Shown: positions 8,046 to 47,339 of the stretch, in pieces
How positions within the stretch are numbered: position 1 is the first letter of the stretch
How the letters are laid out: each line of letters starts with the position of its first letter
Assembly: GCA_025738555.1 (NCBI GenBank)
Contig: JAOVFP010000009.1
Coordinates: 2,046,001-2,110,000 of the forward strand
Origin: Cyathus striatus
Lineage: Eukaryota; Basidiomycota; Agaricomycetes; Agaricales; Nidulariaceae
Direction of reading: 5' to 3'
DNA length: 64,000 bases
The notes under the pieces: model-generated
The model's input: the letters and a program-made list of their open reading frames with translations, nothing else
What the model was told of the DNA's origin: nothing
Database searches by the model: none
Translations under genes and position numbers: made by a program

Positions 8046-8189
8046 CATATATGTCTGGCCACTTAAGTGAAAACTCTTTGAAAAATCTCAAATGAAAAGG
8101 TATGTATTTACAAAAAGAAATATGTTATGAATATTTTGCATTCCATGTCACTCACATATGATGCATTGATATCTAGAGCTCTTTGTGCT

Positions 8190-8440
8190 CCCCCCCCTTA
8201 CACGTGAATTTCACATGAATTTCACATGAATTAGTGAACTTTATGTGAACTTTTTACCCACTATTTTTTTAATTTTTGGGTGATAATGCTGCAAATTATT
8301 TCACATGAATTTCAGGTGAAAGATTCACCTAATATTCATGTGAATTTTCACATTCTGGATTCATGTTCACTCTAAATGTATGTGAAATTCATGTGTAATT
8401 CACATGAAGTGTGAATGGAATATTACTCTTACTATATATA
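8190..8440. repeat. E1 left subterminal TTCACATGAA array
   Basis: Degenerate 10-12 bp units of the type TTTCACATGAA and its near-palindromic variants. The same repeat language occurs at E1's right end (25090-25395) and at both ends of E5. It is a probable transposase-binding array, by analogy with other DNA transposons. Confidence 0.8.
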
Positions 8441-8451
8441 GTATAGCATAT

Positions 8452-8540
8452 AAAAAAAAAGAGTGTTCACACTGGTGTTCAAATGCTCGCCCTCACAAAC
8501 CAGCCATGTATTTCCCACAACCAGCACACTAAACTGCTAT
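8452..8540 (-). other. Degenerate tRNA-like Pol III unit (E1)
   Basis: On the minus strand an A-box-like TAGCAGTTTAGTGTGCTGG (8539-8521) is followed by a B-box-like GCATTTGAACACC (8486-8474). After 13 bp comes a run of nine T (8460-8452), which fits a Pol III terminator. The unit points outward toward the left end. It is the most decayed of three such units; E4 and E5 have clearer ones in the same place. No tRNA cloverleaf can be closed. Confidence 0.45.
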
Positions 8541-8761
8541 GTCATATGACCTTATTTCTCTAAGGTACTATATGCTATACAGTCACCCTATACTCTCTAC
8601 CCACCAATTTTTTTGTGCAACATCGAATAACTTCCCACATGTTCACTGTCATACCATGCATCCCCCACTGTCCTTCCACCACCACCACCACCACCACCAC
8701 CATTCTGCTTGCCCCCCTCCCTCCATTTAACTCCATGTGATAGAGCACCATTTCATGCTTG

Positions 8762-9350
8762 GTAAGTTTATTTGCATTGCAGATGATCAATATCAATGGA
8801 TATCAATGAGTACTGACCACTGTTTCTTCAGGATCAATTCCTTTCTCTCTCACTGCTGTCAACTCTCACCATTGTCGATCCACCTGCATTCATCAGCAGT
8901 CGCTTTTAGGTAAGTTTTTTTTAGCATGTATTGATATCCACACAACTGACAGTTTCTTATCAATTACAGCCCCCACTCTCACATGCATGCTTCATATCGA
9001 TGTGGCAATGTTGCATTTGACACATCGACCCACCTGCGTTCATCAGCACTTGCTTGCAGGTGAGTTTTTTTTTTAGTGTGTATGGTGTATGTATATCCAC
9101 ACAAATGACAGTTTCTTATCAATTACAGCTCCCACTCCCACACACATGCTTCATATAGATATGGCAATGTTGCATTCAACACATCGACCCACCTGTGTTC
9201 ATCGGCACTCTCTTGCAGGTAAGTTTTTTAGTGTGTATTTATATCTACACTATCTACACAACTAACACTTCCTTATCAATTACAGCCCCCACATGTGTGC
9301 TTCATATCAATATGACAACATTGCATTCGACACGGCAAGATACACATGTC
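8762..9350 (+). other. Tandemly duplicated exon-intron module
   Basis: A unit of a 90-nt exon plus a 60-69 nt intron is repeated. Exon-like segments lie at 8832-8909 (78 nt), 8970-9059 (90), 9129-9218 (90) and 9286 onward. Introns at 8762-8831, 8910-8969, 9060-9128 and 9219-9285 all start GTAAGT or GTGAGT and end in CAG or, in the first copy's exon border, TTTTAG|GTAAGT. With phase 2 the exons stay open through every copy and give a 30-residue repeat containing HASYRCGNVAFDTSTHLRSS. A TGA stop lies at 9348-9350. No start codon was found upstream in the same frame. Either an exon was serially duplicated or a satellite captured splice sites. The product is unknown. Confidence 0.5.
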
Positions 9351-11450
9351 ATTGACATACCAAGCTGCATCAATATGCATGGGATCATCTTCCCCACCTC
9401 AATTTCCCTCGATTTCACCATCCAATAGGGGGGATAATGTATTTGAATGTGTTTAGTGGGTCACAGGGTAGTTTAGCACAGTATGTCTCCCTCCCTCCCC
9501 CTCCCCCTCCCCCTCCCCATGCTAACCCTGTATAAAGCTTCATGGGCAGCAACACATTCTACCACTCTTTTCAACATCAAACTACAACACCCCCCCTCTC
9601 AACATCTGCCCCTTTCAGCCCCAGCGTCAACATGAAGCACCGACACTGTGTTACCACCCCCTTCAACCTCAACATTCCTCTCCTCAAGTCCTTCCTGGTT
9701 GTTGATGCGATGCGCTAAGCCCTCAAGGTCCTCAACCCCCCCTTCTCTGCCTTCCAGCACTGCATTCCCCCTTTCAGTGCCATCTCAGGTGGTCCTAGCA
9801 CCAACATGAAATGTCATTGACACTGTGTTACCACCCTCACCTTGACCTTTCCATGCCCACTCCAACTCCCCAACCCCAACGTTCCCCTCCCTAAGTTCCC
9901 ACAGGTCACCAACATGATCCACCAAGCCCCCAACACCTTCAGCCCCCCTTGTTACCACAATGGTGTCCATCCACCATTGCCATCTCCACTATCCAGCACT
10001 GCCCTTGTCCCCTGTCGACTAATCAATGCCATGTTATCAATTGTCTCTTCTTTCTTGCAGGAGCATCTTGTTGTTGCACAGCACATTGCAGATGTTGGGT
10101 AGACCAGGTGGGACTTTGGGCAGAGACAGTGGATGAAGGCATGTGTGCACCATGCTAGGGAAGGTGGGGGATTCAAGGATGCTTGGGGCGTCTGTGTGTG
10201 TGCACCATGGCACATTTGCATAGTGCTAGGGAAGGGGGGATGATTTGAGATTCAAGGATGCTTGGCATCTGCATGGTGCTAGGGGAGGGTGGAAGATTTG
10301 AGGACACTCAGGGCATCTGTGCATGTGTACATCTTGTTTTTCTGCCTCTTCTCCTGCTCATGCATCTTCCACCAGTCCTCAACAAAGTCAACATGCAATG
10401 TTCTTCATGCTGTCTCCCTGTCCATGCTAGTGTCCCTAACCCCCCTTCTTCTTTGTACCCTCCAGCCTTTCCCTTTGCATTGACAGCAGTGGCAGTGTGT
10501 CAATGGCCCCACCCCCCCCAGCCAGCCTCTCTCTGGCCTCTTCCTCTACATTCATCTTAGCACATGTGTATGTGGGTAATGAGTTGGAAGCACAGCATTT
10601 GATGAAGTGAGTATTTTTCACTTTTTAATTGTCATAAATTAGTACTAATATTCACTACATGTAGTAAGTAGGAGTTACAGCATGTGCATGTAATGCTAGG
10701 GGGTTTGGAGATGCTATGGTATACATGTATTTGTGTAATAGGGGATTTGGAGACAGTGGATGAGAGCATGTGTGCACCATGCTAGGGAGGGTGGGGGATA
10801 TGAGGATGCTTGGTGTGGATTCAAGATTCGAGGATGCTTGTGGTGTCCATGCATGTGTGCACCTGCATAGTGCTAGGGGAGGGGGATTCAAGAGTCGAGG
10901 ACACTTGTAGCATCTGTGTGTGTGTGTGCCTGTGTAGTGCTAGAGGAGGGGATTCAAGATTCAAGGACACTTGTAGCATCTGTGTGTGCATGTGCCTGTG
11001 TAGTGCTAGAGGAGGGGGGATTTGAGATTTGAGAATGCTTGTGGTGTCTGTGTGTGCATGTGCCTGCATAGTGCTAGGGGAGGGGAAGATTTAAGGATTA
11101 GGGCACTTGGATGTGTGCACACGTGGTAGGGGGGGACTCAGGCACTTAGGTGCACATGTGATGCTTCTGAGTTGGCTGTGTACGTCATAGCTAAGTTTAG
11201 TGTAGATATTATTAGTCTACCAATAGAATTGGTTTTCACAGAGAAGATTGTGCATGTTGTAGTTAAGTTTAGTGTAGATAATATTAACTCACCAATAGGA
11301 TTACACCACATGTTAAGATAATTTTAGACAAGGTTAGGAAGCATGTCATGTGTGTGTACACATGGGACACAGGCCATGGGACACAAGCTTTTGAGTTCAT
11401 TGTGTCCCCTCCACTTAACTCTCAACCACTCAACCACCATCTCTTACTTC
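9351..11450. repeat. E1 satellite region without a gene
   Basis: No gene recognised. It contains a CCCTCC microsatellite at 9488-9520 and a duplicated segment of roughly 165 bp sharing GACACTGTGTTACCACC (9645 and 9817). From 10140 to 11160 there are about nine imperfect 60-80 bp units with GTGCTAGGGGAGGGGGATT and the phrase GATTCAAGGATGCTTG, interrupted at 10340-10690. An imperfect duplication with TTTAGTGTAGATA occurs at 11198-11290. Confidence 0.75.
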
Positions 11451-11985
11451 AACTTTGTTAAACTCTTACTCTGTTTTCAACAAATATACCATCTCAAAAC
11501 AGCAAAAAAAGCAACAGTACCCCAGTCTCACCACCAACTTCTCACAGTGGTTTGACTCACACTGAGCCACCTGCCTCTAAAGGCTGCAAACATACACAAT
11601 CTACTGTAGATACCACAGCTGAGCCAGCTACCAAGAAGCCTGCTGTTACAGCTGATGAAGAAACAGTGGATAACAGTGAAAAGCAGGGAAAGAAAAGAGG
11701 TGGGAGGGGAAGAGGTGGGAAACTGAGGGGGAGAGGTGGGCAGTATGTATCAGCTATTGTAGTTATTTTTCAAAGTTCAATATCTCACTTAAATTTTAAG
11801 TAAAACTGCTGGTGATAAAGATAAGGAAGATGAAGCTGCAAGCAATGCAGCCAACAAAGAGAAATCCAAGGTATAAGTATATATTTTGTTGCACTAGATT
11901 TTTCTAATGCAATAATTTTAATGCTATGAAGAAACTTCAAGAAATGTCAATTTCTATTGCACCACCTATGCAGCCCAAGACTGCT

Positions 11986-12103
11986 GGTGCCTCTGAGATT
12001 TCTAGGGCTTCTGAGATTACTAGCACTTCTGAGATTGCTGGCACTTCTGAGATTACTGGCACTTGTGAGATTACTGGCACTTCTGAGATCACTGGCACTT
12101 CTG
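11986..12103 (+). repeat. 18-bp in-frame array in gene A1
   Basis: About seven copies of TCTGAGATTACTGGCACT, encoding a SEITGT hexapeptide. It is absent from the paralogue A2, so it expanded after the two copies separated or was lost from A2. Confidence 0.9.
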
Positions 12104-13008
12104 GAGTCTTGGCTACAACCCCAAGCCAATCAAGTGATTCTGGGGACAATAACTCTGAAGGAGACTGAGGGCATAACTCAGGATAATAATGAGGAAAATG
12201 AAGACAATACAGAAGATAAAGATGGTGATAGCAATGATAATGACTATGATGGTGATGATGATGTAGAAGAAAGAGAAGATATAGTTTTAGATGAGAATGA
12301 CAGTAGCTTGGCTCAGATTGAGGAGGAAGATGTAGGCACAATGGATATTAGTATGTGCTATATTTTTATTTGTACCTTTTCTAAAATGTTTATAGACTCC
12401 ACATTGGCATCTGATGCCATACCTACAAAGAAAGATTTGAAGGGTGCATCCAGAACTACTGGTATTTCTTATTTTTTTCTTGGTTATAGAAGTTCTGAAA
12501 TAAATTTCTAGGAGGCATATTCCGGGGCAAAGCTCAAGGAAATAATTTTCGGTTTGCTGATAATACAAATGAAAGTTCATCTATGGTTGTAAACCCTCAG
12601 GGGTTTGTCTACATCACAGTTTCTGATGATTCTCCTAAGTTTAATCCAACCTTGTTGAATACTGAAACACCACCTCAGGCTGTGCCAACTATAGTAAATT
12701 CTTGCCTTAAATTGGTACTGGACTCAGTTGCAAAAAGAATGCTTATCATTAAACATAAGATTAACTTTGACTTAATGTTATCATTTGACTAATATTACAT
12801 AGTTCAAAATAGGCTTATTATGAAGTTTGACACTGAGCATGATACTTGGATTATATTTGGATGTTTCGATGATATTGAAAGCACTGATACTATTCAGTGG
12901 ACTTCTCGAATAAATGATCTGGTGTTATATCTTGCTGCTGTAATGTCATTTTAACTTATATTCATATCTAATTTCTCATAATTTCTTAGATTTCTGTGAA
13001 AGAAACTT

Positions 13009-13308
13009 ATGGAAACCTGGAGCACCACACTCAGAAGCATCAAAATATTTCATGCTCTGAGCATTGGCTGCTTGGCAGATTGCTTATGCCTTCACTTAGA
13101 TATCTGTGCTCTGGTAATGAAATTCGGTAGCCACTCACCTCAGTCAGATTTTTTTAATAATAGCTAGAGGAGTACAAATAGAGTCAAATTGATGATTACA
13201 TAAGCATGGTCACAAGTGTTATTGTCTTCAAGGAAATGACACTTGTGACCAGAATGTAAAAATAGGTACAAACAGAAGCAAGGAGGGAGTGAATATATTG
13301 TGTAATAA
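13009..13308. repeat. Left 300-bp terminal inverted repeat of G
   Basis: Reads as the reverse complement of 21781-22081 with roughly 90% identity by eye; shared blocks include GAGCACCACACTCAGAAGC and TTTTTTTAATAATAGCTAG. Part of its inner end (GTACAAACAGAAGCAAGGAG) is repeated again near 13473. Confidence 0.9.
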
Positions 13309-15479
13309 GTAACAATGGATTCATTTCTAAGCTTACCCAGAGGGCTATAAATGTAGAAGGGTGCTATATATTTATTTCAAAGCAACATTTGTGCTGTTGC
13401 ACCTAATGTGCATAAGTTGAGGTGATGATTGAGTAGTGAGGACGAAGTTTTGGATGAATGTACAAACAGGTACAAACAGAAGCAAGGAGAGAGTGAGGAT
13501 ATTTGAGAAAACAGAACTAGCTAACTAGGAGCTTCAAGTGTATACTAGTAGTACTAGTAGAAATATATTTCTGAAACTACCAGGTACCATCTCCATCACT
13601 GAAGTCCTCATCTGAAGTGAAGTTAACTTCAATTTCTGCCAAATCTTGTTCCTGGTATGGAAGTGGATCATCCACATTCATCATATAATCCAGTTCAGCT
13701 GAATGAGTTTCATCTGTAATGTAAATGTCAACTACTGAAAAACTAGCAGGTGATTACTACTAACCCATTCCTTGGCCATTGTTAACACCTCCCATATAAT
13801 ATGAACCATCTGACATTTGATTTTCCATGCCTCCTTCAAGTTCTTGAAGTCCTGGCATTAATTCCTCATCATTATCAGCTATTTCATTCTGTGTCAAGGT
13901 TTGAATAATATCAGTCCATAGAGCAAAGTCCTCATGTGGAATTTCATTTGCTGCCTGGATATTTGTTAAAATCAACAAATATACATCCCATACATTGTGT
14001 CTTGTAATTGCTGGTGAGTTATGTTGAATGTATATTGCACTAACCATGTTGGAAAATGACTTGGGAACAAGCTCAAATACTGGGTGATCTGGGGGTGAAA
14101 ACAGAGTGCATGCTTCTTGTATAGCCTCTTGTTGGACAGATATCTATAATTTATCAAATATTAGTTGACCAGATTACTAACTAAGTGAGAACACACATAC
14201 TTTGAAGTCTAACACACCATATTCACTAGGATTTAAACAAATATCATTTGGAACACCATGTGGAAGAATTTTATTGTGATCTGCTTGTTTTGCTGAGTTA
14301 TTAACTCGATTCTTGTAAGCATCAAGCTCTCCTTGTAACCAAGGAATAAAGACCCAGTGAAATACCAATCTAAAAAGGATAAGAATAAGATGAAATTGTA
14401 TAAAATAATGACTAATGCCTCTAAAGTATTATCTGGGTGATACCAATCCTCATTAACACCATGATCAAGAATGTTTTCAAATCCAGGAGTAAATCAATGC
14501 CGAAGCTGTGACCATGTGATCTCAGGCTTTATGTTCTTCTTCTCATGCATCCAGTGATGTTGGAGTGTCCCTTTAAGTGAAGGATCATGCCAGTGTCGAA
14601 GAAATGTATGTCCATTTGCAATTCCAAAGTTTTCAGAACCAGGATTACTCTGAGTGACTAGTGGCATAGCTGTATGGTATAAATCAAATGAGAATTCAAT
14701 GCAATTCATGTATGGTATGAAATATTTACCTCCCATATCTTCAATTGCTTCAAGATAATAGCTAAATATTAGCTTGGGATTGCTGTTAGAGTGCCAAACC
14801 TTCAGCCAGTGTATCTTTCCAGCAAATGGATCAATGCCAGTATGTAGACCAAGGCCAAACTTGTATTTCCATTTGTCATGCTGGTCCACTGCAATAATGT
14901 CATTAACACCAGCAGACCACCACTTCTTCCTCTTCAACCTTCGTGCTCGCCACTGCTTCACAAGATCAGGCTCATAGAGAGCAAAATATGATATAACCAC
15001 TTGTCTAGTTGAAGAAAAGACCATAGAGTAAGATATTTGAAGATATTGAATTCATTGACAAACATACCAGGTAACAGCCATATTTTCCTCATGAAATAAT
15101 AAACTGACCATCTCTCAAGCACCAGCATTTGGATATTGTGTATGCAATTGAACCATAGCCTCATGAATACTGTCAACATCAGAGGACCTGACACTGACCC
15201 ACATTCTCAGTAGAATCCAGTGAGATTATCATGAGATTCTCTGATACTCCAGTGAGAATCCAGTGAGAATATAGTGATAGAATGAGAGAGTAGTGAGAGT
15301 TCAGTGAGAGTTTACTGAGACTACAGTGAGAAAATGTATGATTTTCATCTCAGTAAAATCTCACCTAATTCTCATTGGGTGAGAATCTCAGAGAGTCCAA
15401 TGAGAATCTAGTGAGAATAAGTCACTGAACTCTCAGTACAGTCTCTGACATTTAACTCTGTTGTTACAAATTCCCACAC

Positions 15480-15975
15480 AATATTTCATGAGATCTCTCT
15501 GCACCAAAGCAGTCATGTGACCTGTGTGACATCTTGAAAAAGCGTGATGTGTGTGATACATGTGACATATCATAGCCATCACACTTGTCACACTTTTCCC
15601 AACATGTCACACTTTTTCCAACATTGTCCAATATGTCACATGTAAGCTGTACCTAGGCTCTATTGTCACAGTTGTAATGTGTTTCCCACAGTTATCATAC
15701 TTGTCACACATGTGGGAAAAGTGATATGTTGGAAAATGTTAGACAAAGTGTAGTGCCTAAGCATTATCTAGACACTATTGTCACACATGTATGAAAGTGT
15801 GACATGTTGGAAAATGTTGGAAAAAGCGTGACATGTGTGACAAGTGTGGGAAAAAGTGTGACATGTTGGAAAAAGCGTGACACGTTTGGAAAACGTTGGA
15901 AACATAAGTGTGACATGTGTGACAGGCGTGGGAAAAGTGTGACATGCTAGAAAAGTGTCACATATCATAATCATC
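15480..15975. repeat. E2 left GTGACA arm
   Basis: Degenerate GTGACATGTTGGAAAA units. The stretch from about 15758 to 15960 is inverted-homologous to 16655-16845, including the AACGTTGGAAACATAAGTGTG block. Together the arms can fold back. Confidence 0.9.
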
Positions 15976-15983
15976 ACACTTAC

Positions 15984-16591
15984 TAGTGTTGCCGCCGCTC
16001 AGTTCCGCTCAGTTTAGCTCAGCTTCAGTGGCTCAGGTACTGCTGGTAGCTCAGCTCATGAGTGGAGCTGTTTAGGTTTGGTTCGCTTCTCCAGCTAACC
16101 GCTTAGCTTTGGCTAAGCCACAGCTCAGTCTGTTCGCCGCAAGTTACTAAATATGTAGCTCAGCAGAATAGAGAATGGGCATTCGAAAGGCGCTTAGAAG
16201 CTAATTTGACGCAGTGCGTACCTTTTACATAATGGTCCGGGGAGCTGTTAAATCTGCGTGCGAGGTAGCATTTTTATCTTCTTTCCATCGAGTTTGCTCG
16301 AGCTCAATACTATTATGCATGCATGAATATTAGTATTATTTATCTATATGTAAAAAGGGAAGTTATGAATGAAAATAACGGAAGATTAAGTGGTACATGA
16401 TATTTGTTTAACGAGATTCAGAAATGGAAATTACATAAGCTGTAGCTTAGCGGGCTCATAGCCGACGTGGAGCGGCTCCTAGCTGAGCTAGAGCTGTCCG
16501 AGTGCAGCTCTCGTGAGACTTGCTCAGCTCCGCTCATTTTCGGCTCAGCTCACCGGCTCGTGGCTTTGGAGCCAAGCAGACGGCAACACTA
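15984..16591. mobile_element. hAT-type MITE, 608 bp, TSD ACACTTAC
   Basis: Perfect 11-bp terminal inverted repeats TAGTGTTGCCG (15984-15994) and CGGCAACACTA (16581-16591), with an 8-bp duplication ACACTTAC at 15976-15983 and 16592-16599. Subterminal regions carry many GCTCAG/CTGAGC motifs in both orientations. The T-A-G start, 8-bp duplication and subterminal motifs are characteristic of the hAT superfamily. No open frame, so it is non-autonomous. It landed close to the centre of the E2 palindrome. Confidence 0.92.
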
Positions 16592-16599
16592 ACACTTAC

Positions 16600-17110
16600 C
16601 CAACTTTTTCCAACATGTCACACTTTCCCCACATTGTCACATATGTCACGCTTCCAAACGTGTCACAGTTTTCCCACGCCTGTCACACATGTCACACTTA
16701 TGTTTCCAACGTTTTCCAAACGTGTCACGCTTTTTCCAACATGTCACGCTTTTTCCCACACTTGTCACACATGTCACGCTTTTTCCAACATTTTCCAACA
16801 TGTCACACTTCATACATGTGTGACAATAGTGTCTAGGTAAAAGGTAAAGCTTAGTCACTACACTTTTCTTATCATTTTCCAACATATCACACTTTTCCCA
16901 CATTTTCCAACCTTTCACACATGTGTGACAAGTATGATAACTGTGGGAAACACACCACAACTGTGACAACAGAGCCTGCATGACATGTCAGAAATGTTGG
17001 ATGTCACACATATCATGCTTTTCCAACATTTTCCAACATGGCACACTTTTACACATGTGTGACAAGTGTGATGACTGTGGGAAACATGTTGCAACTGTGA
17101 CAATAGAGTC
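16600..17110. repeat. E2 right TGTCAC arm
   Basis: Inverted partner of the left arm, with CACGCTTTTTCCAACATGTC units. Beyond about 16850 it continues as a second, more diverged copy of GTGTGACAAGTGTGATRACTGTGGGAAAC (about 16923 and 17059). Confidence 0.88.
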
Positions 17111-18026
17111 TAAGTACAGCTTAGGCACTTGAGTTCAGTGGAGTTCAGGTAGAGTCTAGATGCTCTACTGATAGTGTAGTGAGACTCTCACTGAACTCTC
17201 AATAGTCTAGTGAGAATCCAGTGAGACTCTCACTGGATTCTTGATAGTCTAGTGAGAGTCCAGTGAGAGTCCAGTGAGAGTCCAGTGAGAGTCCAGTGAT
17301 AACTGTGGGAGAGTGCAACATACTGCAACATCATGCTTTTGCTTTCGTGAATGGAATAAACCCATAGCTTCACACATTTCCCGAAACTGTGTCAATCTAA
17401 TTTTATATATAAGTAAGATAGAGATAAATACCAAGAATAAAACAACTAGAATTACTGACCCCAAGCCATAGCGTGTAACATCCATGTGTTTTTCCTTCAG
17501 ATAATGGAGTATTACCTTGTCAGAATGGCACATTTTCCAGTACATAAGTATGTACTGTGCAATATTGTCAATTGGAGCTGTGACAAGCAGGTAAATTAAC
17601 AATTTATGAGTATAATAAACAAACATTATGATTTGGTAAGTATTGATTTTTCACAAGTTTTGTTTGTGCCATGATAATGAAAATGAGTAGGAGACAGAAA
17701 TGAGACAGCTATACTTACACTCATCATTTTTTGTGGTATATATATGTTATGCTAACAATGGGCAATCCAAAAGTATCATAATTGCAATTAAACATAAACT
17801 GAGATGCTAATGACACATGTTCTTGGAGCCAATATTTAATGTGTGAAAATGTAATGCTATTATGGGTGGTGTAGCAGTAAACGATTATTCACAAAGCCTT
17901 GGCCTTCACCAAAGACATTGTCTTACATTACCATTTAGCTGATTTTGTATATATTAGATATTGAACACTCTTTGCTATTACTCTTGTAATCCTGCTAAGG
18001 AGACATGTGTATTTGATTGATCATTG

Positions 18027-19787
18027 CAGTACTTTACCCTCCCCCCCATATTCTGGACAGACTCCAGGTGGACAAGAAAATGTCTGGATTTTCCAGATGG
18101 AATCCACATGGAACACAGATTTTCTGGAAGGAGTCCAGATGGACATGATAATTTCCAGACAAAGTCCACATTGAGTCCATGTTAAAGAACATTTTTTCTG
18201 GGTGGAATCTGAGTGGAATAAGAAATTTTCCAATTGATAGAAATGAAATATATCTTTGTTTTCCCATACAGTCACATAGTATTACAGGATTACAATATTA
18301 TGTATTGCAGTTATCACAGTTATATTTGACATAGTATTACACTGTCACACTTTTTGCAATGTCACAGTATTGGAGTTGTCACAGTTTCACATGGTCATCA
18401 GGGTCATCTTTATTATCACACTTGTCACATAGTGTCACAGCTGTCAAAATCTGTAATGCTGTGTGATAAGTGATACTGTGACACTACAAAAAGCGTGACA
18501 AGTGTGACATTAAGCGAAAAGTTTGACAGCATGTGTTGAGTGTGATGCAATGTGAAAGGTGTGATGCAATGTGAAACATGTGATGCAATGTGAAAAGTGT
18601 GACACAACATGAAAAGTGTGACACAACATGAAAAGTGTGACACAACATGAAAAGTAGCTGTGATAACTGCAAGACTGTGAGACACATAATATTGTGATAC
18701 TGCAATACTATGCAATATTGTGACACCTGTGTCACACTCAACATACTGTATCATGCAAGTGTGTCACACTCAATGCATAATGTCATGCTCCACACACCAT
18801 GTCATGCTCAATACACAGTGTTACACTCAACACATGGTGTCATGCTTAACACACCATGTCACACTCAACACATAGTGTCACGCTCAACACACAGTGTCAT
18901 ACTTAGTGCATAGTGTCACGCTCAATGTGTAGTGTCACATTCAATGCATCATGTCACACACAACACATGGTGTCACACTTAATGCATAGTGTCACACTCA
19001 ATGTGTAGTGTCACATTCAATGCATCATATCACACTCAACAGGTGTCATACTCAACACATGGTGTCATGCTCAACACATGGTATCACACTCAATATGTAG
19101 TGTCACATTCAATGCATCATGTCACACTCAACACATGGTGTCACACTTAATGCACAGTGTCACATTCAATGTATCATGTCACATTCAATGTATCATGTCA
19201 CACTCAATGCATCATGTCACACTTAGCACATAGTGACATGCTCAATACATAATATCACACTCAGCACACAGTGTCACACTTGACATAGTCGTAGAAGTTG
19301 TGAACTGTACAGCATGTGCCCATGCACAAGCTAGCCATAGTGTAATAGTTATGCACACTATCCACTATCATGTGAATGGGTGTTATGTAATCATCACAAC
19401 AATACTGGTTCAAACTATGCAACTATGCCATGCTCTACTAATTTATTTATGATATAAGTAAAATAAGTAATAAACTACTAATTAATACAAGCTACCTGGA
19501 ATCCATATGGATTCCAGGTGGAGTCCAGTATAGCAAATTCCTTTGGAATTCTGGCTGAAAGGCGGAATTTGGCCAATAATCTGGATTCCATATGGAATTC
19601 ATCTGGAAAGCACCCAGACCAGAAAACTAAAATTTGGCTGGTGTCTCTGCCAAAACAAGTCCACCCGGATTCCGGATGGAGTCTATGGAATGGCCAGAAA
19701 TTCCATGGAAATTCCGCGGACTTTCCGGGGAGTCCATGGATTCTGTCCAGACTCCGGAAGGAATTTAGGGGGGAGTGTAAAGACCTC
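18027..19787 (-). mobile_element. E3: non-autonomous KDZ-family element, reverse orientation, TSD GATCATTG
   Basis: Flanked by GATCATTG at 18019-18026 and 19788-19795. Its left end is CAGTACTTTACCCTCCCCCC and the complement of its right end is GAGGTCTTTACACTCCCCCC, the clearest terminal pair of the family, here with the GAGG end on the right. Just inside both ends are TCCAGGTGGAATCC-type repeats (18055-18240 and 19495-19765). A long TGTCACACTCAACACA array fills the middle. No coding frame. It lies between the two genes of element G. Confidence 0.93.
18290..19285. repeat. TGTCAC / CACTCAACACATGGTG array in E3
   Basis: Some 40 imperfect units of about 19-22 bp with the core GTGTCACACTCAA(C/T)RCAT, preceded by GTGATGCAATGTGAAA variants in the opposite sense (18485-18660). 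It shares the GTGAC/GTCAC core with the arms of E2 and F. Confidence 0.88.
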
Positions 19788-20193
19788 GATCATTGTAAGA
19801 GTAATAGGTGCATATGCAACTTAAACCTCATGTTTTTATCCAGTATATACTAACAAGTATTCGGCTCTGAGTCTTGAGTTTGCATTGTTCTACAACAATG
19901 AACTTTACTTATCACTTACCTCACATTCTATGAGATATGACATACCCAACTCCCACAGTTGTTGTGTGTTTAATTTTGAAGCTATGACTGTGCTGCATAT
20001 TCTTGATAATAGTGGTCCATGTTATAATTAGCATTAATACAGTTTTACATGTGACTGACTCATGTTATTTGCATGAAGCTTAGAATTGCAGCTTATCCTA
20101 AACACAAGGATTTTGTGAATATATATACTGTGACATCCCTCTTATGTTTTTAAGCAGCTGCTTTATTCCATCCACAACAACTATATTCCACAT

Positions 20194-26150: not shown

Positions 26151-26164
26151 GTAAACAAGAGGAG

Positions 26165-36573: not shown

Positions 36574-36629
36574 GAGTTTTGTTATTACTTGCTTTCAATA
36601 GTTGGGTTTTTGTTTTTATTCTATTGTTG

Positions 36630-37070: not shown

Positions 37071-38924
37071 AAATTTTGTTGTGATTCTGTGAATTGTGAG
37101 AACAATTTTCTAATGAAACTTTCTATTTTTTATAGCTCAACCTACCTGCTTTATTTTAAAATATGGACAATATGTGTTTTATTATCCTTTATACCTCAAG
37201 TAAATGCAGTTCAATCTGAAGATCCATTTCCAAATATTCCATTCAAGCTGTTTGCTGAATTTATTAATCTCAATTTCAGTTCAGATATTACTTTGGCAAC
37301 TGTGTTGACAATTCTGTTCTCATTGCTGAATAACACTGATATTCTTAACCTCCATGCACGAGCAAAACATTCCATACATGAAGATGAATATTCTGTAACT
37401 GCTAATGGATGGATTAAAGCACTTGCTACTGCTATACAAACTCACTTAGATGCAAAAATTAACTCTGCAGAAATGAAGGATACACAACTATTTAATTCAT
37501 ATGAAAGGCCAGAAATTTTAGGGTCATCAAAAATATCTGTAATTTCTAAAAAGCTAGATAGATTGTTGTCTATATTGGACTTAGACCCTTATGAAAGAAA
37601 AGGAGAAATTTTACAACCTTTGAAACCTGTTTCTACTAGTGAAATTGAGCCAGTACTGCTTATTGGTCCTGCTCGCATCACATGTTCAACACCTGAAAAA
37701 CCTTGTATTGGAAGAGCATTACATATCAATACTCGTCAACATGATAGAACAAAAGTTACACTTATAAGAGGAATTAAACTATATGAAAATGCTCAGATTG
37801 TATCTGGATTTTGCACAAAATGTGAAGCTATATATTATGCAGATCATAAAAGTCTTGCCACTCCTTCCAACTCTGAAACTTCACAACGTAATCCAGATGT
37901 TAGTCCTAAAGATTGCATGATTTTCAATAAAGCAAAATATATTAAAATTGGAAAAAGTATCTGGGCTGATAGATTGTTTACAACTATGGTTGTCAATTCT
38001 GTATATCATTTTCATGCATCAACTGCTGCATATACAGAGTTCTGGAATTATACATTTTCAAAAGGTGATGAAAATGAGTACCCGCCTATTTCAAGACAGC
38101 AAATATGGAAAGCCTTCATACATGAAACAACTAGACAGATATCTGTTTCAATGAATAAAACTCTAGTGATGCCTGACAATTTATTAATACAGCAAATAGC
38201 TAAAGAAGCATATTTGAAGTTGGGACAAGAAGGTATTATTGGAGATGCTTTGAACCATTCATGTAAAGAATGCACACATGATTATAAAGCAACAGCTGAT
38301 CATATTAATGCTGATGACAATGCCGCAGTAGCCGGAATAGATGAAAATCGCACTGTACCAATATTACGAGAAGATGCTGAAAATACAGAATATGCAGATA
38401 TGGATGATAATGCAATGGAAACAGATCTTGTTCCAGAACCAAAAGTTAAAATGATAGTGGTTTATGGCATTGTTATGGGGCCAAATCACTGTGCCTATCA
38501 GAATTGTTCTGAAAAATTGGCAAATGCACAAACAGGAGTATTTTGTCTAAGACATGAGAGTCAACATGAAGGACTATGCTGAATGAAAAGGTGTTATAAT
38601 ATTAAAGAACAAAATTCTCAAACATGTGTAAACCACAGACAAAACTGGTATAATCACGTTATTAGATTTGAATGACAATCTGTACTTGGCATTCGAAGAC
38701 TTATCCGAAGAACTGAAGAAGAAGGTGCACTATCATGGACACAGCAATTGAGAAGAAGAATTAATCCACAACATGACCAGCCAAATCGTGAACCACAGGA
38801 ACCAGATAATTACTTTGTGGCTCCTCATTTCTATTGTGTTGAAACAATTTGTGCACCATGTGGAGTTGTAATTGCATGGACAAAATTTGCAAAATCAGAA
38901 GGTGCGAGGTCTTTACTCTCCCCC

Positions 38925-39215
38925 ACCCTTTTCATGTGAATTTTACGTGAATTTCATGTGAAATTCACCTGAAGTTTTGGACCTCAATTTTCTCGGATTT
39001 TGGGGGAATCCCCTGCAAATTGCTTCATGTGAATTTCACATGTGATTCACATGAATTTCATATGGAACAACGTGAATAGGTGAAATTCACGTGAAAAACC
39101 CCGCATGAAATTCATGTGAATTGCACATGAATTACACATGAAGGCATGAATATCTGAATTCTACGTGAATTAACCAGGTGAATTTCACCTGGCATTCACA
39201 TGGAATTCAGGTAAA
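38925..39215. repeat. E5 left subterminal TTCACGTGAA array
   Basis: Near-palindromic TTCACATGAA/TTCACGTGAA units; same language as in E1, pointing to a close relationship of E1 and E5. Confidence 0.88.
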
Positions 39216-39265
39216 CATGATTCCGTGTTTGATACTACTACTAGTAGATGTAATAGTACTTATAT

Positions 39266-39369
39266 AAAAAGTTATTGGCACCACGACGAATCGAACTCTC
39301 GCCCACATAACATTACGTAAACGTAAATTCACACGTTGAGCCAACTAATACCACTACACCACACGAGCG
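39266..39369 (-). other. tRNA-like Pol III unit (E5)
   Basis: Minus strand: A-box TGGTGTAGTGG (39361-39351), B-box AGTTCGATTCG (39298-39288), then TTTTT (39270-39266) followed by ATATA. The spacer between boxes (about 52 bp) fits a tRNA with a long variable part or intron, but the T-stem and acceptor stem do not pair. Same position and outward direction as in E4 and E1. Confidence 0.65.
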
Positions 39370-39436
39370 TTATTTCAGTTGGAGAAATTAGCGTATAGGT
39401 TAAGCATCTAACCGTACGTGGCAGTGTCGGACCGTT

Positions 39437-40690
39437 TTGGTTAACGGCACCCTCCGACGTTACCACGTCACGACCGCCCATCCACCATCACCCTTCCTCC
39501 GCTCCCCCAGGCTCTCCGCTCCCCTTCCGTCTCCCTCCTCCTTCTTCCCTTCCTCGTATTCGGACGACGCAACGGGCACACGCGAGGCAGACAAGATGCC
39601 AGGGCTCACAACGAACGGTTAAAGGAGACGGAGGGGAGTGAGGGGGACAACGAGGGAGTTGTCCATATCAGGTGAGTCGATGACGGCGTGAACGATGAGG
39701 ATGAACGCTAATGACAGCATCCACAGCGCATGCACGCTGGTGAGGACATTAGCGAGAACAGCGTCCTCCAGGCGTCCTCTCCCCCCGTTTCTTATTGTCA
39801 CCACATCACCCACCGCCTCCGTCCTCCCCTCTGCGTCGTGATACGACGACGCCATGCCACCAAGCCAGCGAGGACAGCTACTGTCACCACGCGTCTCATC
39901 CCCGCGACGTCACCCAGCACCCACGTCTCACAGCGCCCCCGTCCTCACCTCTGCATTGTGACGACAATGACGCCATGTCACCCAGCCGGTGAGGACACCG
40001 TCCTCCGTCTCATCTCTCCCAGCGTCCCCGTCCTCCCTCCGCGTCGCGACACCCCCACGCGTCTCATCTCACCTAGCGCCTTCGTCCTCCCCTCTGCGTC
40101 GCGACGACGACGACTCCTGCTAACCAGCCGGTAAGTGCGCTGTCCTCCGTCTCTTCTCCCCACACGTCTCATCCCCGCCACCTCTCACAGTGCCCCCATC
40201 CTCCCTCTGCGTCGCAACACGACGACGTCATGCCGCCCAGCTGGTGAGGACACCTTCTCCCCACGCGTCTCATCTCACCCAGCGCCCCGTCCTCCCCCTT
40301 GCGTCGCAGCACGATGACGCCATCGCCAAACACCAAACACCAACGATGAGGGCAGTGCCCACCGGGAGGGGTGGCAGTGGCGGGGGCGCATAGCGAGGCG
40401 AGGTAACAATGAGCGCCACGTCACCCAGCGCCTTCGTCGTTCCCTCTGCGCCTTGACGACGACGACGATGACGACACCACATGACCCAGCATCCCCGTCC
40501 TTCCTTCTGCGCCGTGACAACGACAACGACGCCATGCCATCCAGCGCCTCCGTCCTTCCCTCTGTCGTGACGACAACAACGATAGGGAGGAGATGGATGC
40601 AAGGAGGACGCATAACGAGAGGGGGGGACATATGGCGAGGGGGGGACGTATAGCAAGGAGGGGGACGTATAGCGAGGGGGGGAAGGAGTG
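39437..40690. repeat. GC-rich degenerate CGACGCCATGTCACCCAGC array in E5
   Basis: Imperfect 60-70 bp units with CGTCTCATC, GACGACGCCATG(T/C)CACCCAGC and (G)GTGAGGACACCGTCCTC, the last a small hairpin (39991-40005). The far end has CGTATAGCGAGGGGGGA units that continue beyond F at 45260-45560. Open frames here reflect composition. Confidence 0.85.
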
Positions 40691-40695
40691 CATAA

Positions 40696-42296
40696 GTGCC
40701 AGCCATTCTGATCATATAACAGCAGTGTTATATGATTGCCCCAATCGAATAAGCCATGCCTTTTTATGATTGGGATCATAAACAATCATTGAGGTTCTAA
40801 TTGAATACTACTATTGTATGAATGTATTAAATGATCATAAGCAATCATTGATTGTTTCTAATTGGATATTACTATTGTATGGATGGCTAGGTGATCATAA
40901 ACAATCACTGATTGTTTTTAATTGAATACTACTATTGTATGAATGTATTAGGTGATCATAGACAATCATTGATTTATCTAATTGAATATTAGTATGAATG
41001 GAGAGGCAATCATAAACAATCATTGATCTTTCTAATTGAATATTATTATTGTATGAATGGTGAGGTGATCATAAACAATCATTAATCCTTACTAATTGAA
41101 TATTAGTATGAATGGAGAGACAATCATAAACAATCATTGATTTTCTCTAATTGAATATTATTATTGTATGGATGGTGAGGTGATCATAAACAATCATTGA
41201 TTTTTTCTAATTGAATATTATTATTGTATGAATGGTGAGGTGATCATAAACAATCATTAATCCTTACTAACTGAGTATTAGTGTGAATGGAGAGACAATC
41301 ATAAACAATCATTGATTTTTTCTAATTGAATATTGTTATTGTATGGATGGTGAGGTGATCATAAACAATCATTGATTTTTTCTAATTGAATATTATTATT
41401 GTATGAATGGTGAGGTGATCATAAACAATCATTGATTTTTACTAATTGAATATTAGTATGGATGGTTAGGCAATCATAAGCAATCAATGATAACTACTAA
41501 TTGGATATTGCTACTGTATGGATTTGTCACATTTCCTCACATGTCACAATTGTGACACATCTTCCCGCGCGTCACATATTTCTCGCACGTCACGTTAGTC
41601 ACATATATTCCCGCGTATCACGTTCGTCTCGCGCGTCACAATTGTCACATATATTCCCGCGCTTCATATTAGTCACACGCGTCACGCTTTTTATGCATGT
41701 CACAATTGTCACATATATTCCCGCGCTTCATGTTAGTCACGCGCGTTACATTTTCCTCACGCGTCACGATTGTCACACATATTCCCGCGCCTCACATATT
41801 TCCCGCGCATCACACATTTCCCACGCGTCACATATTTCACGCACATCACGCGCGTCACATTTGTCACATACGTTCTGGCGTGTCACAATTGTCACATATA
41901 TTCCCACGCTTCATATTTGTCACGCGCGTCACAATTGTTACATATATTCCCGCATGTCACGTTCGTCTCGCGCGTCACAGTTGTCACAAGTATTCTCGCG
42001 CTTCATGTTAGTCACGCGCGTCACGCTTTTCACGCGCGTCACGCTTTTCACGCGCGTCACGCTTTTCACGCGCGTCACGCTTTTCACGCGCGTCACGCTT
42101 TTCACGCGCGTCACGCTTTTCACGCGCGTCACGCTTTTCATGTGTGTCATGCTTTTCATGTGTGTCACGCGCGTCACATTCGTCACACTTTTAGCGCTCG
42201 TCACGCTTTTCACATTCTTACATTTGTCATGCTTTGAAATCTTGCCTTTCTTGGGTATTAATCTTTTGATTCACATTACATGTTCTATGTGTGTCA
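40696..42296. repeat. Left inverted arm of F
   Basis: Outer part (40745-41510): alternating 54-60 bp units with AATCATTGATTTTTTCTAATTGAATATTA. Inner part (41520-42240): CpG-rich GTCACGCGCGTCAC units, with 7 copies of an 18-bp TCACGCTTTTCACGCGCG. It has about 180 bp (near 41740-41920) that the right arm lacks. Confidence 0.93.
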
Positions 42297-43594
42297 TTAC
42301 ATTTCTCGCAGCATTACATTTGTTATGCTTTGTAAGTATGACACTTGTCATGCTCTTAGTATAGGTAGCAAATTGAAAACTATATTAATAGATGGATACT
42401 CAGCAATAGTATGTGCATGGACCACTTCCTGATGCTGTCTGAGTAGTTACCTGATTCATTCTGCCAGTAGTCATATGCTTATCATAAAGATTAAGCCATA
42501 CATGCATGTACAAGGATAAGCAACATTTATCAGAGACATCAACACATACAGCAGTATAGAAGTGAACCTGATTGTCATAGAAGATGTTTTTGAGTTGAAG
42601 GAAATTCTAAGACAAAGAATTTGTGAGTTGATAGCACATCCATATATCCACAGGTACTAGTAAGGGAAAGTCACCTATATTTAATGAATGTAATGTACTG
42701 TACTAAAATAGGTACAGAACAATGGTAGTGAGCTGAGTATCAAAAAGAGAAATAAGCCCAATTCTATGGTACAGGCAATTTGCCTGCTGTACATTGTGTC
42801 ACAGTATCAGTAAGAGTGGAGATAGTTTACATTACCTCTCTGTATCAATAAAGCAAACTGTCATGTAGTTATATAGAGTAAGCAGATATGTGACTCAATA
42901 ATGTGTATTGAAGATATCAGTATAACCAATAGTGATACAAGAATCATGATCATCTAATGTTTGAGATGTGTAAGTTTGATGTGATGTAGAGTTACATAGT
43001 TCAATACCATTATATCATATCTCTAGTCTTGATTGTAAAATGTCAATGAACTTACATACACTCTACATTTTTCATTCTAGTTGCTTCTTACTGTTAGACT
43101 TCCATAATTTACTAATTGTAATATCTCATGTCATAACCTTCAATTTAGCAAGAACATATATGTTTCCTTGCTTTAATAATTTATTCTGCAGTTTAGAATA
43201 CTTCTGTTCTGTAATGTGAACAATGATATAGATATACCAGTAACCAGACACACATAACTAACTCAAGTTGTTATATCTTACGACAGACAAACAAAGTTGA
43301 AATGTTCTACATGTCATAATAAGTTCCAAAAATCTTGTGATCTTATGAAATATGCACAAAATGTGACAAATGAGATGCATATTGAGAACATGACAAACTT
43401 GACATGTGACTTGCATCAAAAACATAATGCAAATGAAAACCATGATAGGATAATAGTGGATAACAAGTGATATGCTGAGTATTCCCCACTTCACATAGTT
43501 TCAAATTTAGATATGTTGTCAATATCAAAGGCCAAATTAGATTACTGAGCTGTGAAAATTGTGGCAAATGTAACATGTGAAAAGAGCATGATGA
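42297..43594. other. Non-coding centre of F
   Basis: AT-rich DNA with no open frame of note, no repeat and no recognised RNA gene. Confidence 0.7.
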
Positions 43595-45254
43595 GTGATA
43601 CACATAGAACATGTAATGTGAATCAAAAGATTAATACCCAAGAAAGGCAAGATTTCAAAGCATGACAAATGTAAGAATGTGAAAAGCGTGACGAGCGCTA
43701 AAAGTGTGACGAATGTGACGCGCGTGACACACATGAAAAGCATGACACACATGAAAAGCGTGACGCGCGTGAAAAGCGTGACGCGCGTGAAAAGCGTGAC
43801 GCGCGTGAAAAGCGTGACGCGCGTGAAAAGCGTGACGCGCGTGAAAAGCGTGACGCGCGTGAAAAGCGTGACGCGCGTGAAAAGCGTGACGCGCGTGAAA
43901 AGCGTGACGCGCGTGAAAAGCGTGACGCGCGTGAAAAGCGTGACGCGCGTGAAAAGCGTGACGCGCGTGAAAAGCGTGACGCGCGTGAAAAGCGTGACGC
44001 GCGTGACTAACATGAAGCGCGGGAATACTTGTGACAACTGTGACGCGCGAGACGAACGTGACATGCGGGAATATATGTAACAATTGTGACGCGCGTGACA
44101 AATATGAAGCGTGGGAATATATGTGACAATTGTGACATGCATAAAAAGCGTGACGCGTGTGACTAATATGAAGCGCGGGAATATATGTGACAATTGTGAC
44201 GCGCGAGACGAACGTGATACGCGGGAATATATGTGACTAACGTGACGTGCGAGAAATATGTGACGCGCGGGAAGATGTGTCACAATTGTGACATGTGAGG
44301 AAATGTGACAAATCCATACAGTAGCAATATCCAATTAGTAGTTATCATTGATTGCTTATGATTGCCTAACCATCCATACTAATATTCAATTAGTAAAAAT
44401 CAATGATTGTTTATGATCACCTCACCATTCATACAATAATAATATTCAATTAGAAAAAATCAATGATTGTTTATGATTGTCTCTCCATTCACACTAATAC
44501 TCAATTAGTAAGGATTAATGATTGTTTATGATCACCTCACCATTCATACAATAATAATATTCAATTAGAAAAAATCAATGATTGTTTATGATCACCTCAC
44601 CATCCATACAATAACAATATTCAATTAGAAAAAATCAATGATTGTTTATGATTGTCTCTCCATTCACACTAATACTCAGTTAGTAAGGATTAATGATTGT
44701 TTATGATCACCTCACCATTCATACAATAATAATATTCAATTAGAAAAAATCAATGATTGTTTATGATCACCTCACCATCCATACAATAATAATATTCAAT
44801 TAGAGAAAATCAATGATTGTTTATGATTGTCTCTCCATTCATACTAATATTCAATTAGTAAGGATTAATGATTGTTTATGATCACCTCACCATTCATACA
44901 ATAATAATATTCAATTAGAAAGATCAATGATTGTTTATGATTGCCTCTCCATTCATACTAATATTCAATTAGATAAATCAATGATTGTCTATGATCACCT
45001 AATACATTCATACAATAGTAGTATTCAATTAAAAACAATCAGTGATTGTTTATGATCACCTAGCCATCCATACAATAGTAATATCCAATTAGAAACAATC
45101 AATGATTGCTTATGATCATTTAATACATTCATACAATAGTAGTATTCAATTAGAACCTCAATGATTGTTTATGATCCCAATCATAAAAAGGCATGGCTTA
45201 TTCGATTGGGGCAATCATATAACACTGCTGTTATATGATCAAAATGGCTGGCAC
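43595..45254. repeat. Right inverted arm of F
   Basis: Reverse complement of the left arm with 14 instead of 7 copies of the 18-bp CpG-rich unit (about 43756-44008) and roughly two additional AT-rich units near 44400-44800. Outside the arrays, identity to the left arm is almost complete. Confidence 0.93.
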
Positions 45255-45259
45255 CCCTC

Positions 45260-45565
45260 AGGAGTGCATAGCGCGTAGCAAGGGGGGGGGAGAATGCATA
45301 GCGCATAGCGCATAACAAGGGGGAGAATGCATAGTGAGGGGGGGAATGCATAGCGTATAGCGAGGAGGGGGAGAACGCATAGTGAGGGAGGGAGCGCATA
45401 GTGAGGGGGGGGGGATGTATAACGAGGGGAGGGGAACGCATAGCAAGGGGGAATGCATAGCGCATAGCACATAACGAGGGGGGGAGAACACAGCGAGGGG
45501 TGGGGAATGTATAGCGAGGGGAGAGCGAATGCATAGCGCATAGCGAGGGGAGCGAATGGGGGAGG
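45260..45565. repeat. CATAGCGAGGGGGG array
   Basis: Degenerate 13-25 bp units GCATAGCG(C)ATAGCGAGGGGGG continuing the array left of F (40590-40683); F inserted into it. Confidence 0.88.
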
Positions 45566-45674
45566 CCTAAGTAGTTTAAAAATGTATTTGAATGAAGCTT
45601 TGATCTTGTTCTCGCTTGTCGACTTTGTGTTACTTGTTAGATGGTATAATATATTTGATTGATTAACTCTATTT

Positions 45675-45945
45675 CATGTGTACTTCACATGAATTTCATG
45701 TGAATTTCATGTTTAAATTTCACTTAGTTTTCACCTAAACTTCACTTGAATTTCACCAAATTTTTGTGATTTTGGAACATCCTAGATGAAGGTGAAATTC
45801 ATGTGGACTTCACATGAAAACATGTGAATTTCATGTGAAAATGTTACTTCAATGTGTATTTCATGTGAATTTTACATGAAATTCACGTGAATAGGTGAAG
45901 TTCATGTGAAATTCACGTGAAGTTTAGGTGAAAGGGTGGGGGAGG
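45675..45945. repeat. E5 right subterminal TTCACATGAA array
   Basis: Same units as 38925-39215, mostly near-palindromic, ending 11 bp before the ACTG terminus. Confidence 0.88.
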
Positions 45946-46669
45946 GATAAGTACTGGAAGGTGCCCATCAAATTGTGGAGTTTCTGGAAAATGTATATCC
46001 AATGCAAGAAACTAGACCAAGCTATGTATGCATTGATAAAGCATGTGTAGTCCTGAAATTTTTAATCAACTCCCATAATTGGAATATTTGGAAAGCCTCT
46101 ACAAGATTTGTTGTAGACTCTTATCACTATATTAATCACAGAGTGTCAGATTACTTATGTCGCACTTACTGCAATCCTAGTCCTTTGAATGGATCAGCAC
46201 CAAATCTAGTTGTTGTTGAGAGAGATATAGAGGGTAATGAGCATTATAAACGAGCATTTAATACTCAGGTATGTTTAATATGGTCTCATTTGCAATTTAT
46301 AACTATTTTTCATATAGGCATGTGAGCAACTAAATGCTTGGTTAGGGGGCTTTCAAAGTATACTTAATAGAATGACTGTGGATAACTTCAACTGGACATT
46401 GCATGCAATGCTTTTTATTCATACCCAAAGAGTTATTCAAAAACAAATCAACAAATACAAATTCAGTCAGAACAACAGGGAGGTGAGAATGGAATTGAGG
46501 AAGATGGAGTTGAAATTAATAGAGTTAATTAGGTTGCATGTATGCTAATGTAAAGATCTGTTAAAATAAATATATCAATTTAGTGTTAAAATTTGCAATT
46601 TCCTCCTTTCAGCAAACTAAGAATCTCACAGTTGCAACAGCATCTGCCTGCCTTTTTTGTACAGTTATA

Positions 46670-47236
46670 AGTTGATATAAAGTCCAGGTAGAGTACAGGT
46701 AGAATCCAGGTGAAGTACAGGTAATGAACATGTATTACATTAGTATGAAGTTGATATAAAGTTCAGGTAGAGTACAGGTGGAGTACAGGTAATGAACATG
46801 TATCACATTAGCATGAAGTAGATATAAAGTCCAGGTAGAGTCCAGGTAGAGTCCAGTTGGAGTCCAGGTAATGAACATGTATCACATTAGCATTAAGTTG
46901 ATATAAAGTTCAGGTAGAGTACAGGTAGAGTACAGGTAGAGTACAGGTGGAGTACAGGTAATGAACATGTATCACATTAACATGAAGTTGATATAAAGTC
47001 CAAGTAGAGTACAGGTAGAGTACAGGTAGAGTACATGTGGAGTACAGGTAATGAACATGTATCACATTAGCATGAAGTTGATATAAAGTCCAGGTAGTGT
47101 CCAGGTAGAGTCCAGGTGGAGTCCAGGTAGAGTCCAGGTAGAGTCCAGGTAGAGTTCAGAAGTCTACCTGGAGTCTACCTGGAAATCACATGTAGTCCAG
47201 GTAGACTTCTGGACTCTACCTGAAGTCCACCTGATT
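46670..47236. repeat. E4 right subterminal AGTCCAGGTAGAGT array
   Basis: Five copies of an 80-110 bp unit (TTGATATAAAGTCCAGGTAGAGTACAGG..AATGAACATGTATCACATTAG), then pure AGTCCAGGTAGAG units and their inversions up to the terminus. Confidence 0.92.
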
Positions 47237-47339
47237 TCGTGGAGGACCTCAATATACTGGAATTTTCATGCTCAATAGGTGAGTGTGCATGCTCAACTCA
47301 TGCTCATGTTTGTGTGTGCCTGGAATTTTCTTGCTGCCC

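Follow-up and report, generated by a model that had tools for sequence, protein, structure and literature searches.

The window analysed here is a 64,000-nt stretch of the Cyathus striatus genome (contig JAOVFP010000009.1, or C9, positions 2046001-2110000; host assembly of 107 Mb in 24 contigs). It holds five DNA transposons, E1 to E5, which belong to one family marked by 8-bp target duplications and asymmetric ends, and whose autonomous-type members encode a protein with the cysteine clusters CxC5 and CxC6. A preliminary description of the window had put the five elements at 1.8 to 17 kb. All five are present, but the sizes of E1 and E4 had been inflated by nesting and come to 8.2 and 8.6 kb net. 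Reading E1 as a single 17-kb (17.2 kb) element was rejected, as another element, X, and with it E2 and E3 are nested inside. The elements and their target duplications, in window positions, are:

8176-25422, + strand: E1, GAGCTC-subfamily element with CxC5/CxC6, split by nested X; net 8,166 bp
13008-22082, no strand assigned: X, IS3EU-type, 9,075 bp, nested in E1 and itself holding E2 and E3
13002-13007 (left) and 22083-22088 (right): target duplication of X, GAAACT (6 bp), exact
15182-17325, + strand: E2, non-autonomous, 2,144 bp, within X; ends GAGGACCTGACACTGACCCACA / TGTGGGAGAGTGCAACATACTG
15174-15181 (left) and 17326-17333 (right): target duplication of E2, CAACATCA, exact
18027-19787, - strand: E3, non-autonomous, 1,761 bp, within X; left end GAGGTCTTTACACTCCCCCC at 19768-19787, minus strand
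18019-18026 (right, or ACTG, end) and 19788-19795 (GAGG end): target duplication of E3, GATCATTG, exact
31584-47259, + strand: E4, CxC5/CxC6 element of the autonomous type, split by E5; net 8,617 bp; ends GACGTCATTGCAGTCCCCCACA / CGTGGAGGACCTCAATATACTG
31576-31583 (left) and 47260-47267 (right): target duplication of E4, GAATTTTC, exact
38906-45956, + strand: E5, 7,051 bp, inside the putative transposase gene of E4; ends GAGGTCTTTACTCTCCCCCACC / GGTGGGGGAGGGATAAGTACTG
38898-38905 (left) and 45957-45964 (right): target duplication of E5, GAAGGTGC, exact

The octamers and ends of E2 to E5 sit where the preliminary description had placed them, and the 8-bp duplications of these four elements are exact. 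E1, with the ends GAGCTCTTTGTGCTCCCCCCCC (left) and GGGGGGGGAGTGCAAAGTACTG (right), has no target duplication; its flanks, GATATCTA and CACAGATT, differ at five of eight bases. The degenerate, asymmetric GAGG...ACTG ends proposed for the family hold up, with the consensus 5'-GAG[G/C][T/A]C on the left and ...TACTG-3' on the right. These ends form C-rich, degenerate inverted repeats: left and right ends of each element match at 13-17 of 22 positions, which random window pairs reach at a frequency of at most 0.0015. The asymmetry between left and right is fixed in all seven elements compared (E1-E5 and the genome copies L143, E2-type, and L144, E4-type). Read inward, the left end has G at position 1 and G or C at position 4, and the right end has C at position 1 and T at position 4.

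Searching the genome with these ends revealed many further copies with 8-bp duplications. The left 20-mer of E3, GAGGTCTTTACACTCCCCCC, has 68 exact copies, E3 included. There are 110 E1-type left ends (up to two mismatches), 123 E2-type and 21 E4-type left ends (up to three mismatches each) and 75 matches to the E5 pattern (up to two mismatches), 27 of them already among the E3-type entries, while the reversed control of every left-end pattern gave 0 matches. Right ends number 221 of the E3/E1 form, 63 of these being the G variant, and 52 of the E5 form. The counts also settle two departures from GAGG. GAGC in E1 was rejected as a private mutation and marks a subfamily, GAGCTC being the start of 93 of the 100 E1-type left ends listed (of 110). 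GACG in E4 was rejected as a family variant and is private to E4, the 21 E4-type left ends comprising 19 GAGG, one AAGG and one GACG, that of E4 itself.

We compared the flanks of 84 end pairs outside the window and distinct from L143 and L144 (47 E3-type, 27 E5-type and 10 E1-type). For the E3 type, 20 of the 68 exact left ends were examined over 9.9 kb. A right end turned up for 17 of them and for neither L013 nor L017 in that range; a weak match with three mismatches in L025 was not counted. The remaining pairings took in all 63 right ends of the G variant and 11 T-type right ends near left ends on C4-C7, the T-type ends being taken from the first 100 of 221 places. Pairs were compared up to a length of 10 kb (E3-type) or 9 kb (E5-type). 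From the E5 pattern, 29 of the 75 matches were dropped before pairing and association (the 27 in the E3-type list and two others), leaving 46; 100 of the 123 E2-type and 100 of the 110 E1-type left ends were used. Of the 100 E1-type left ends listed, 42 were entered; 22 of them found a partner, and the 10 that come first in order of position were compared.

An exact 8-mer duplication flanks 51 of the 84 pairs, and 10 others show one mismatch, 3 show two and 20 show three or more. By type, exact duplications occur in 24/47 E3-type, 17/27 E5-type and 10/10 E1-type pairs; one mismatch in 7, 3 and 0; two in 1, 2 and 0; and three or more in 15, 5 and 0, respectively. Two E5-type pairs share the octamer and 40 flanking bases on both sides with another pair (C6:298882/C19:189914 and C3:6377286/C10:3845600), and identity of this extent points to one insertion carried in a larger duplicated or mobile stretch. 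With duplicated loci counted once, 49/82 pairs are exact and 59/82 have at most one mismatch (61/84 uncorrected). In a mispaired control (5,402 pairings of 74 pairs) only 0.07% were exact, that is 4, all of them shared-flank pairs, and 0.3% had at most one mismatch. Among duplication lengths of 5 to 11 in the 74 pairs, 8 alone stands out, with 41/74 exact at 8 and 1/74 at 9. Taking the 74 pairs together with the window, 53 different duplications have no more than one mismatch; 27 of them begin with C and just 3 end in A. Their self-complementarity exceeds that of shuffled octamers, none of 2,000 shuffles reaching the same value. Thus, the target preference of the family is weakly palindromic.

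Empty sites were found for E2, E3 and E5, all of them paralogous rather than allelic. The joined flanks of E2 and of E3 match three copies of X (on C5, C8 and C12) along their full 220 bases with no gap, identity being 96-97% for E2 and 97-98% for E3, and the octamer is single in each. The E5 site is uninterrupted in L144, a relative of E4, where GAAGGTGC is single at the site (7092-7099). The two halves of E4 align to L144 up to 7099 and from 7092 onward, respectively. A second GAAGGTGC lies 176 bases upstream of the site in L144 and has its counterpart in E4 at 38721. Moreover, the E4 reading frame, when rejoined across E5, aligns gap-free to other copies. The single octamer at empty sites, on which the preliminary description had staked its family, was therefore found for three of the four duplications in the window. 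The genome copies (51/84 exact against 0.07% when mispaired) and the empty sites together bear out one transposon family with 8-bp duplications, and this family is real and large.

Members of the autonomous type measure ~6.7-8.9 kb and carry two genes, ORF1 (open reading frame 1) followed by the gene for a CxC5/CxC6 protein of ~700-800 residues. In the window these genes lie at:

11462-12789, + strand: ORF1 of E1, 5' part; second conserved gene, cut by X and apparently continuing past X to ~22649
23019-24898, + strand: CxC5/CxC6 putative transposase gene of E1 (Pfam CxC5 E 5.7e-23, CxC6 E 2.2e-12)
34852-36570, + strand: ORF1 exons of E4; second conserved gene
37023-38579, + strand: CxC5/CxC6 putative transposase gene of E4, 5' part (Pfam CxC5 E 6.5e-18, CxC6 E 4.5e-8)
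45957-46322, + strand: 3' part of the same E4 gene beyond E5 (YVCIDKAC ... VDSYHYINH ... CNPSP)

In E1 the CxC5/CxC6 gene has an open frame of 493 codons, followed by an in-frame TGA (24498-24500), the remaining part of the core and, from a probable exon border at ~24710, the last exon. The E1 and L144 copies look dead, judging from this TGA in E1 and a frame change in L144. L143 and L144 are complete elements with ends, duplication and CxC5/CxC6 gene (8,080 bp with ACGTGAAC and 8,493 bp with CTACTGGC, respectively). CxC5/CxC6 proteins, which the preliminary description had seen in two members (E1 and E4), in fact extend to all five subfamilies. Among long E3-type elements, L014 has a CxC5 match and L011 a CxC6 match. 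The long E5-type element L156 has a CxC6 match, the domain being split by a probable intron, and a core recognised by eye; an E1-type left end lies downstream of its gene. Regarding the E5 type as unrelated, on the ground that 0/46 left ends had CxC6 among the matches listed, was rejected from 4 kb of this long element. Core identity among the five subfamilies is 55-73% over 159-173 residues.

Ends and gene also co-occur across the genome. Judged by the CxC6 matches listed (150 scored of 448 candidates), 30 of the 335 distinct left ends have a same-strand match in the 9 kb downstream, and 2 have one on the opposite strand. For E4-type left ends it lies downstream in 11/21, at 6.4-7.2 kb, with one on the opposite strand and none upstream. 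One protein search returned 194 CxC5/CxC6 relatives at E ≤ 0.001 among 7,996 candidates scored. As for ORF1, L143 and L144 have related last parts, and the L144 exon concerned is also related to the N-terminus of a CxC5/CxC6 gene model from Amanita and, more weakly, of one from Flammula. The continuation of E1 ORF1 after X resembles, by eye, ORF1 exons of other subfamilies. An ORF1 search gave 10 relatives, 36-78% identical and nine of them from Cyathus striatus, none of the 10 bearing a precomputed Pfam domain.

The predicted structure of the CxC5/CxC6 protein is RNase-H-like and retroviral-integrase-like, a DDE-type fold. In the predicted core (residue numbers of homolog P0012), D432 lies on strand 1 and is followed by the CxC6 zinc cluster, inserted between the first two core strands, then by strands 2 and 3, D600 on strand 4 and E680 in the C-terminal helix. 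D432 and D600 are present in 41/41 aligned homologs and E680 in 27/41. On this model, D432, D600 and E680 would be the acidic triad through which the CxC5/CxC6 protein itself carries out catalysis, and the zinc clusters would presumably bind DNA. Foldseek alone gave no match at E ≤ 0.001, and the PDB searched by sequence held no meaningful relative. The bacterial transposase ISCth4 (6xg8, 6xgw and 6xgx), which we take to be of the IS256 family, resembles the protein in fold only, no sequence relation between the two being found.

With high confidence, we read the family as autonomous DDE-type elements moved by their own CxC5/CxC6 protein with an 8-bp stagger, together with short derivatives moved in trans. 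The protein would recognise the degenerate, asymmetric, C-rich ends (GAG[G/C][T/A]C... / ...TACTG), excise the element and reinsert it at a staggered cut whose gap repair would leave the 8-bp duplication; short members that have the ends and lack the gene (here E2, E3 and E5) would be mobilised by protein made elsewhere. Against this reading, the flanking octamers differ by four or more mismatches in 7 of the 14 E3-type elements above 3.2 kb in length, L014 among them. The ends are short, degenerate and GC-rich, and one might suspect motifs picked, by chance or biased selection, for looking like ends; the empty reversed control, the exact duplications at 51/84 against 0.07% and the empty sites leave this a negligible probability. 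Copia-type retrotransposons, which PMC7641404 proposed, on the basis of their co-localisation in Pleurotus ostreatus, to mobilise CxC5/CxC6 regions such as the oyster-mushroom MSH4 insert, are a highly improbable agent here, where the elements have the inverted ends, the duplications of fixed length (8 bp) and the clean empty sites of cut-and-paste transposons with terminal inverted repeats (TIRs).

The rivals that need closer weighing involve KDZ, to which the preliminary description had linked the family, a link that the data do not establish. Pfam KDZ (PF18758) is not listed for the 834-residue L143 protein up to E 10, with filters that drop most matches above ~0.1, nor for the C-terminal pieces of E1 and E4 up to E 1. 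By hhalign, the CxC5/CxC6 core and KDZ gave E 0.36 and 0.14 and no core alignment, the KDZ alignment used being partial and shallow and lacking the strand of the first Asp. A canonical KDZ transposase encoded elsewhere could move the elements in trans, with the CxC5/CxC6 protein as an accessory DNA-binding protein. The Pfam names do tie CxC5/CxC6 to KDZ, the genome has 159 KDZ match stretches, and basidiomycete KDZ elements likewise make 7-8-bp duplications. Yet the ends show no enrichment of KDZ matches in their vicinity. With 91 places drawn from the 159 matches (adjoining exons and matches not listed being omitted), a KDZ place lies in the 9 kb downstream, on the same strand, at 1/100 E2-type, 0/21 E4-type, 0/46 E5-type and 1/68 E3-type ends, the four subfamilies tested. 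A KDZ match is spanned by 2/37 E5-type pairs, both longer than 20 kb and perhaps mispaired. KDZ was rejected as the mobilising gene on these counts. As the complete L143 and L144 carry CxC5/CxC6 and the protein is itself predicted to be of DDE type, movement by KDZ in trans is unlikely. A stronger rival accepts the CxC5/CxC6 protein as the transposase and takes it for a very divergent true member of KDZ, so that the family would be a KDZ subfamily. By eye, both cores share D-x-[A/G]-C, H-x3-H...C and a later E, and these common motifs suggest that the two may have a distant common origin; KDZ-like, too, are the 8-bp duplication and the cysteine clusters, CxC5 and CxC6 lying before or in the transposase core of the same protein. 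Set against the unlisted Pfam match and the hhalign values, which come from the shallow alignment, these traits give a KDZ subfamily somewhat less than an even chance.

Affinity to other superfamilies was considered as well. The 8-bp duplication is common to hAT and the present elements, and the right end here, read inward, starts with CAG, a terminal start common in hAT. No hAT transposase domain is listed by Pfam for the L143 protein, under the same E limit and filters as for KDZ. In its accessible text PMC9674265 deals with hAT activity and does not mention KDZ. Membership in CMC/Plavaka, which has 2-5-bp duplications (PMC12730594), was rejected on the length of 8 found here.

The following comparisons draw on the accessible parts of the papers cited. 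The preliminary statement that no end structure had been published is wrong for basidiomycete KDZ elements (PMC8290104, PMC12730594 and PMC12810828) and so far holds for CxC5/CxC6 elements, for which none was found among the open-licence titles and abstracts listed, though the supplementary figure of PMC8290104 with KDZ and Plavaka TIR motifs of Marasmius oreades might include some. Zisupton and Dileera make 8-bp duplications, and Kyakuja has 7-bp duplications, 5'-CA..TG-3' ends and no TIRs (PMC12730594); Cryptococcus KDZ1 has 241-bp TIRs, 8-bp duplications and CxC1, and KDZ2 and KDZ3 duplicate 4-8 bp (PMC12810828). KDZ elements such as Cryptococcus KDZ1 and Laccaria Kyakuja-1_LB are thus, like the present ones, basidiomycete DNA transposons with duplications of 4-8 bp, and Cryptococcus KDZ likewise combines a cysteine-cluster domain with the transposase. 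The right end of Kyakuja (...TG-3') is like that of the present family, whereas its left CA and its lack of TIRs are unlike the inverted 5'-GA..TG-3' ends here. Unlike KDZ1 with its long TIRs and CxC1, the present family has degenerate ends of ~22 bp, both CxC5 and CxC6, and no Pfam KDZ listed.

A closer parallel comes from Pleurotus ostreatus, where a sporeless strain carries in MSH4 a 6,792-bp multicopy insert with a 739-residue CxC5/CxC6 ORF, attributed to Copia (PMC7641404). Compared by its published description and not by DNA, this insert is like the present elements in size and in its CxC5/CxC6 ORF; its ends and target duplication do not figure in the accessible text. According to the accessible text of the same paper, no KDZ gene lies within the expected distance of the insert, and intact KDZ genes are preceded by CxC2 and never by CxC5/CxC6, which agrees with independence from KDZ. 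Primers for loop-mediated isothermal amplification at the left border of the insert (PMC12568894) could be assigned neither to the gene nor to the insert, and no evidence was drawn from them. CxC5/CxC6 inserts also occur tail-to-tail in Pleurotus (PMC7641404), an arrangement also seen in L013 and L014, two long elements of the E3 type that are nearly identical (99.9% over 6.9 kb) and lie tail-to-tail ~0.6 kb apart.

The nesting in the window indicates a likely order of insertions, in which X entered E1, E2 and E3 entered this copy of X, since its three paralogs lack both, and E5 entered E4. X interrupts what looks like ORF1 of E1. Its inverted ends span ~301 nt, are 90% identical and terminate in TATGG..CCATA. 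We assign it to the IS3EU type because its duplication, TIR and termini match the description in PMC12730594 (in the accessible part, a 6-bp duplication, TIRs longer than 30 bp and TAYGG..CCRTA ends), all three features being present. Its ORFs 13763-14143 and 14497-15051 have no match in Pfam, an IS3EU-specific profile not being used, and the ORF 20562-21248 has a sub-threshold alpha-kinase match (Pfam E 0.0073). E5 has no recognised transposase. It contains a very long internal inverted repeat (40696-42296 / 43596-45254), mostly 94-98% complementary and largely made of tandem arrays. One of the arrays in E5, of the 18-bp unit GTGAAAAGCGTGACGCGC (43679-44006), resembles an array of 14.6 perfect copies of the 19-bp unit AAAGCGTGACAAACGCGCT at the window start (1-278), and this likeness suggests shared satellite-like repeats. 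Related tetratricopeptide-repeat (TPR) arrays flank E4 at 27879-28760 and 47513-48649, with TPR matches for the latter. The ORF 60875-61735 matches Pfam RNase_H weakly (E 0.00086, short of the cut-off) and is a possible retroelement remnant.

What is probably new here are the ends, the 8-bp duplication and the probable enzyme of this mushroom family, an enzyme so far filed as a KDZ helper. It is possible that CxC5/CxC6 elements have the status of a superfamily of their own. In its full form, this proposal would have them separate from KDZ, with a DDE transposase whose zinc-cluster insert lies between the first two RNase-H strands and whose CxC6 domain holds the first catalytic Asp, with ends that differ between left and right, in a fixed way, at bases 1 and 4, widespread in mushroom-forming fungi, and with one copy the cause of the sporeless trait of oyster mushrooms; we put it forward tentatively, as rather less probable than its opposite. 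The fixed asymmetry of the ends raises the question of how left and right are distinguished by the transposase. Mushroom genomes contain many CxC5/CxC6 proteins, and the Pfam name of these proteins casts them as accessories of KDZ. If they are the transposases of their own elements, many repeats in existing genomes would become delimitable and datable. The ends offer the search rule for this, GAG[G/C][T/A]C...TACTG with an 8-bp duplication, and the origin of the 6.8-kb CxC5/CxC6 insert in MSH4 of sporeless commercial oyster mushrooms becomes testable.

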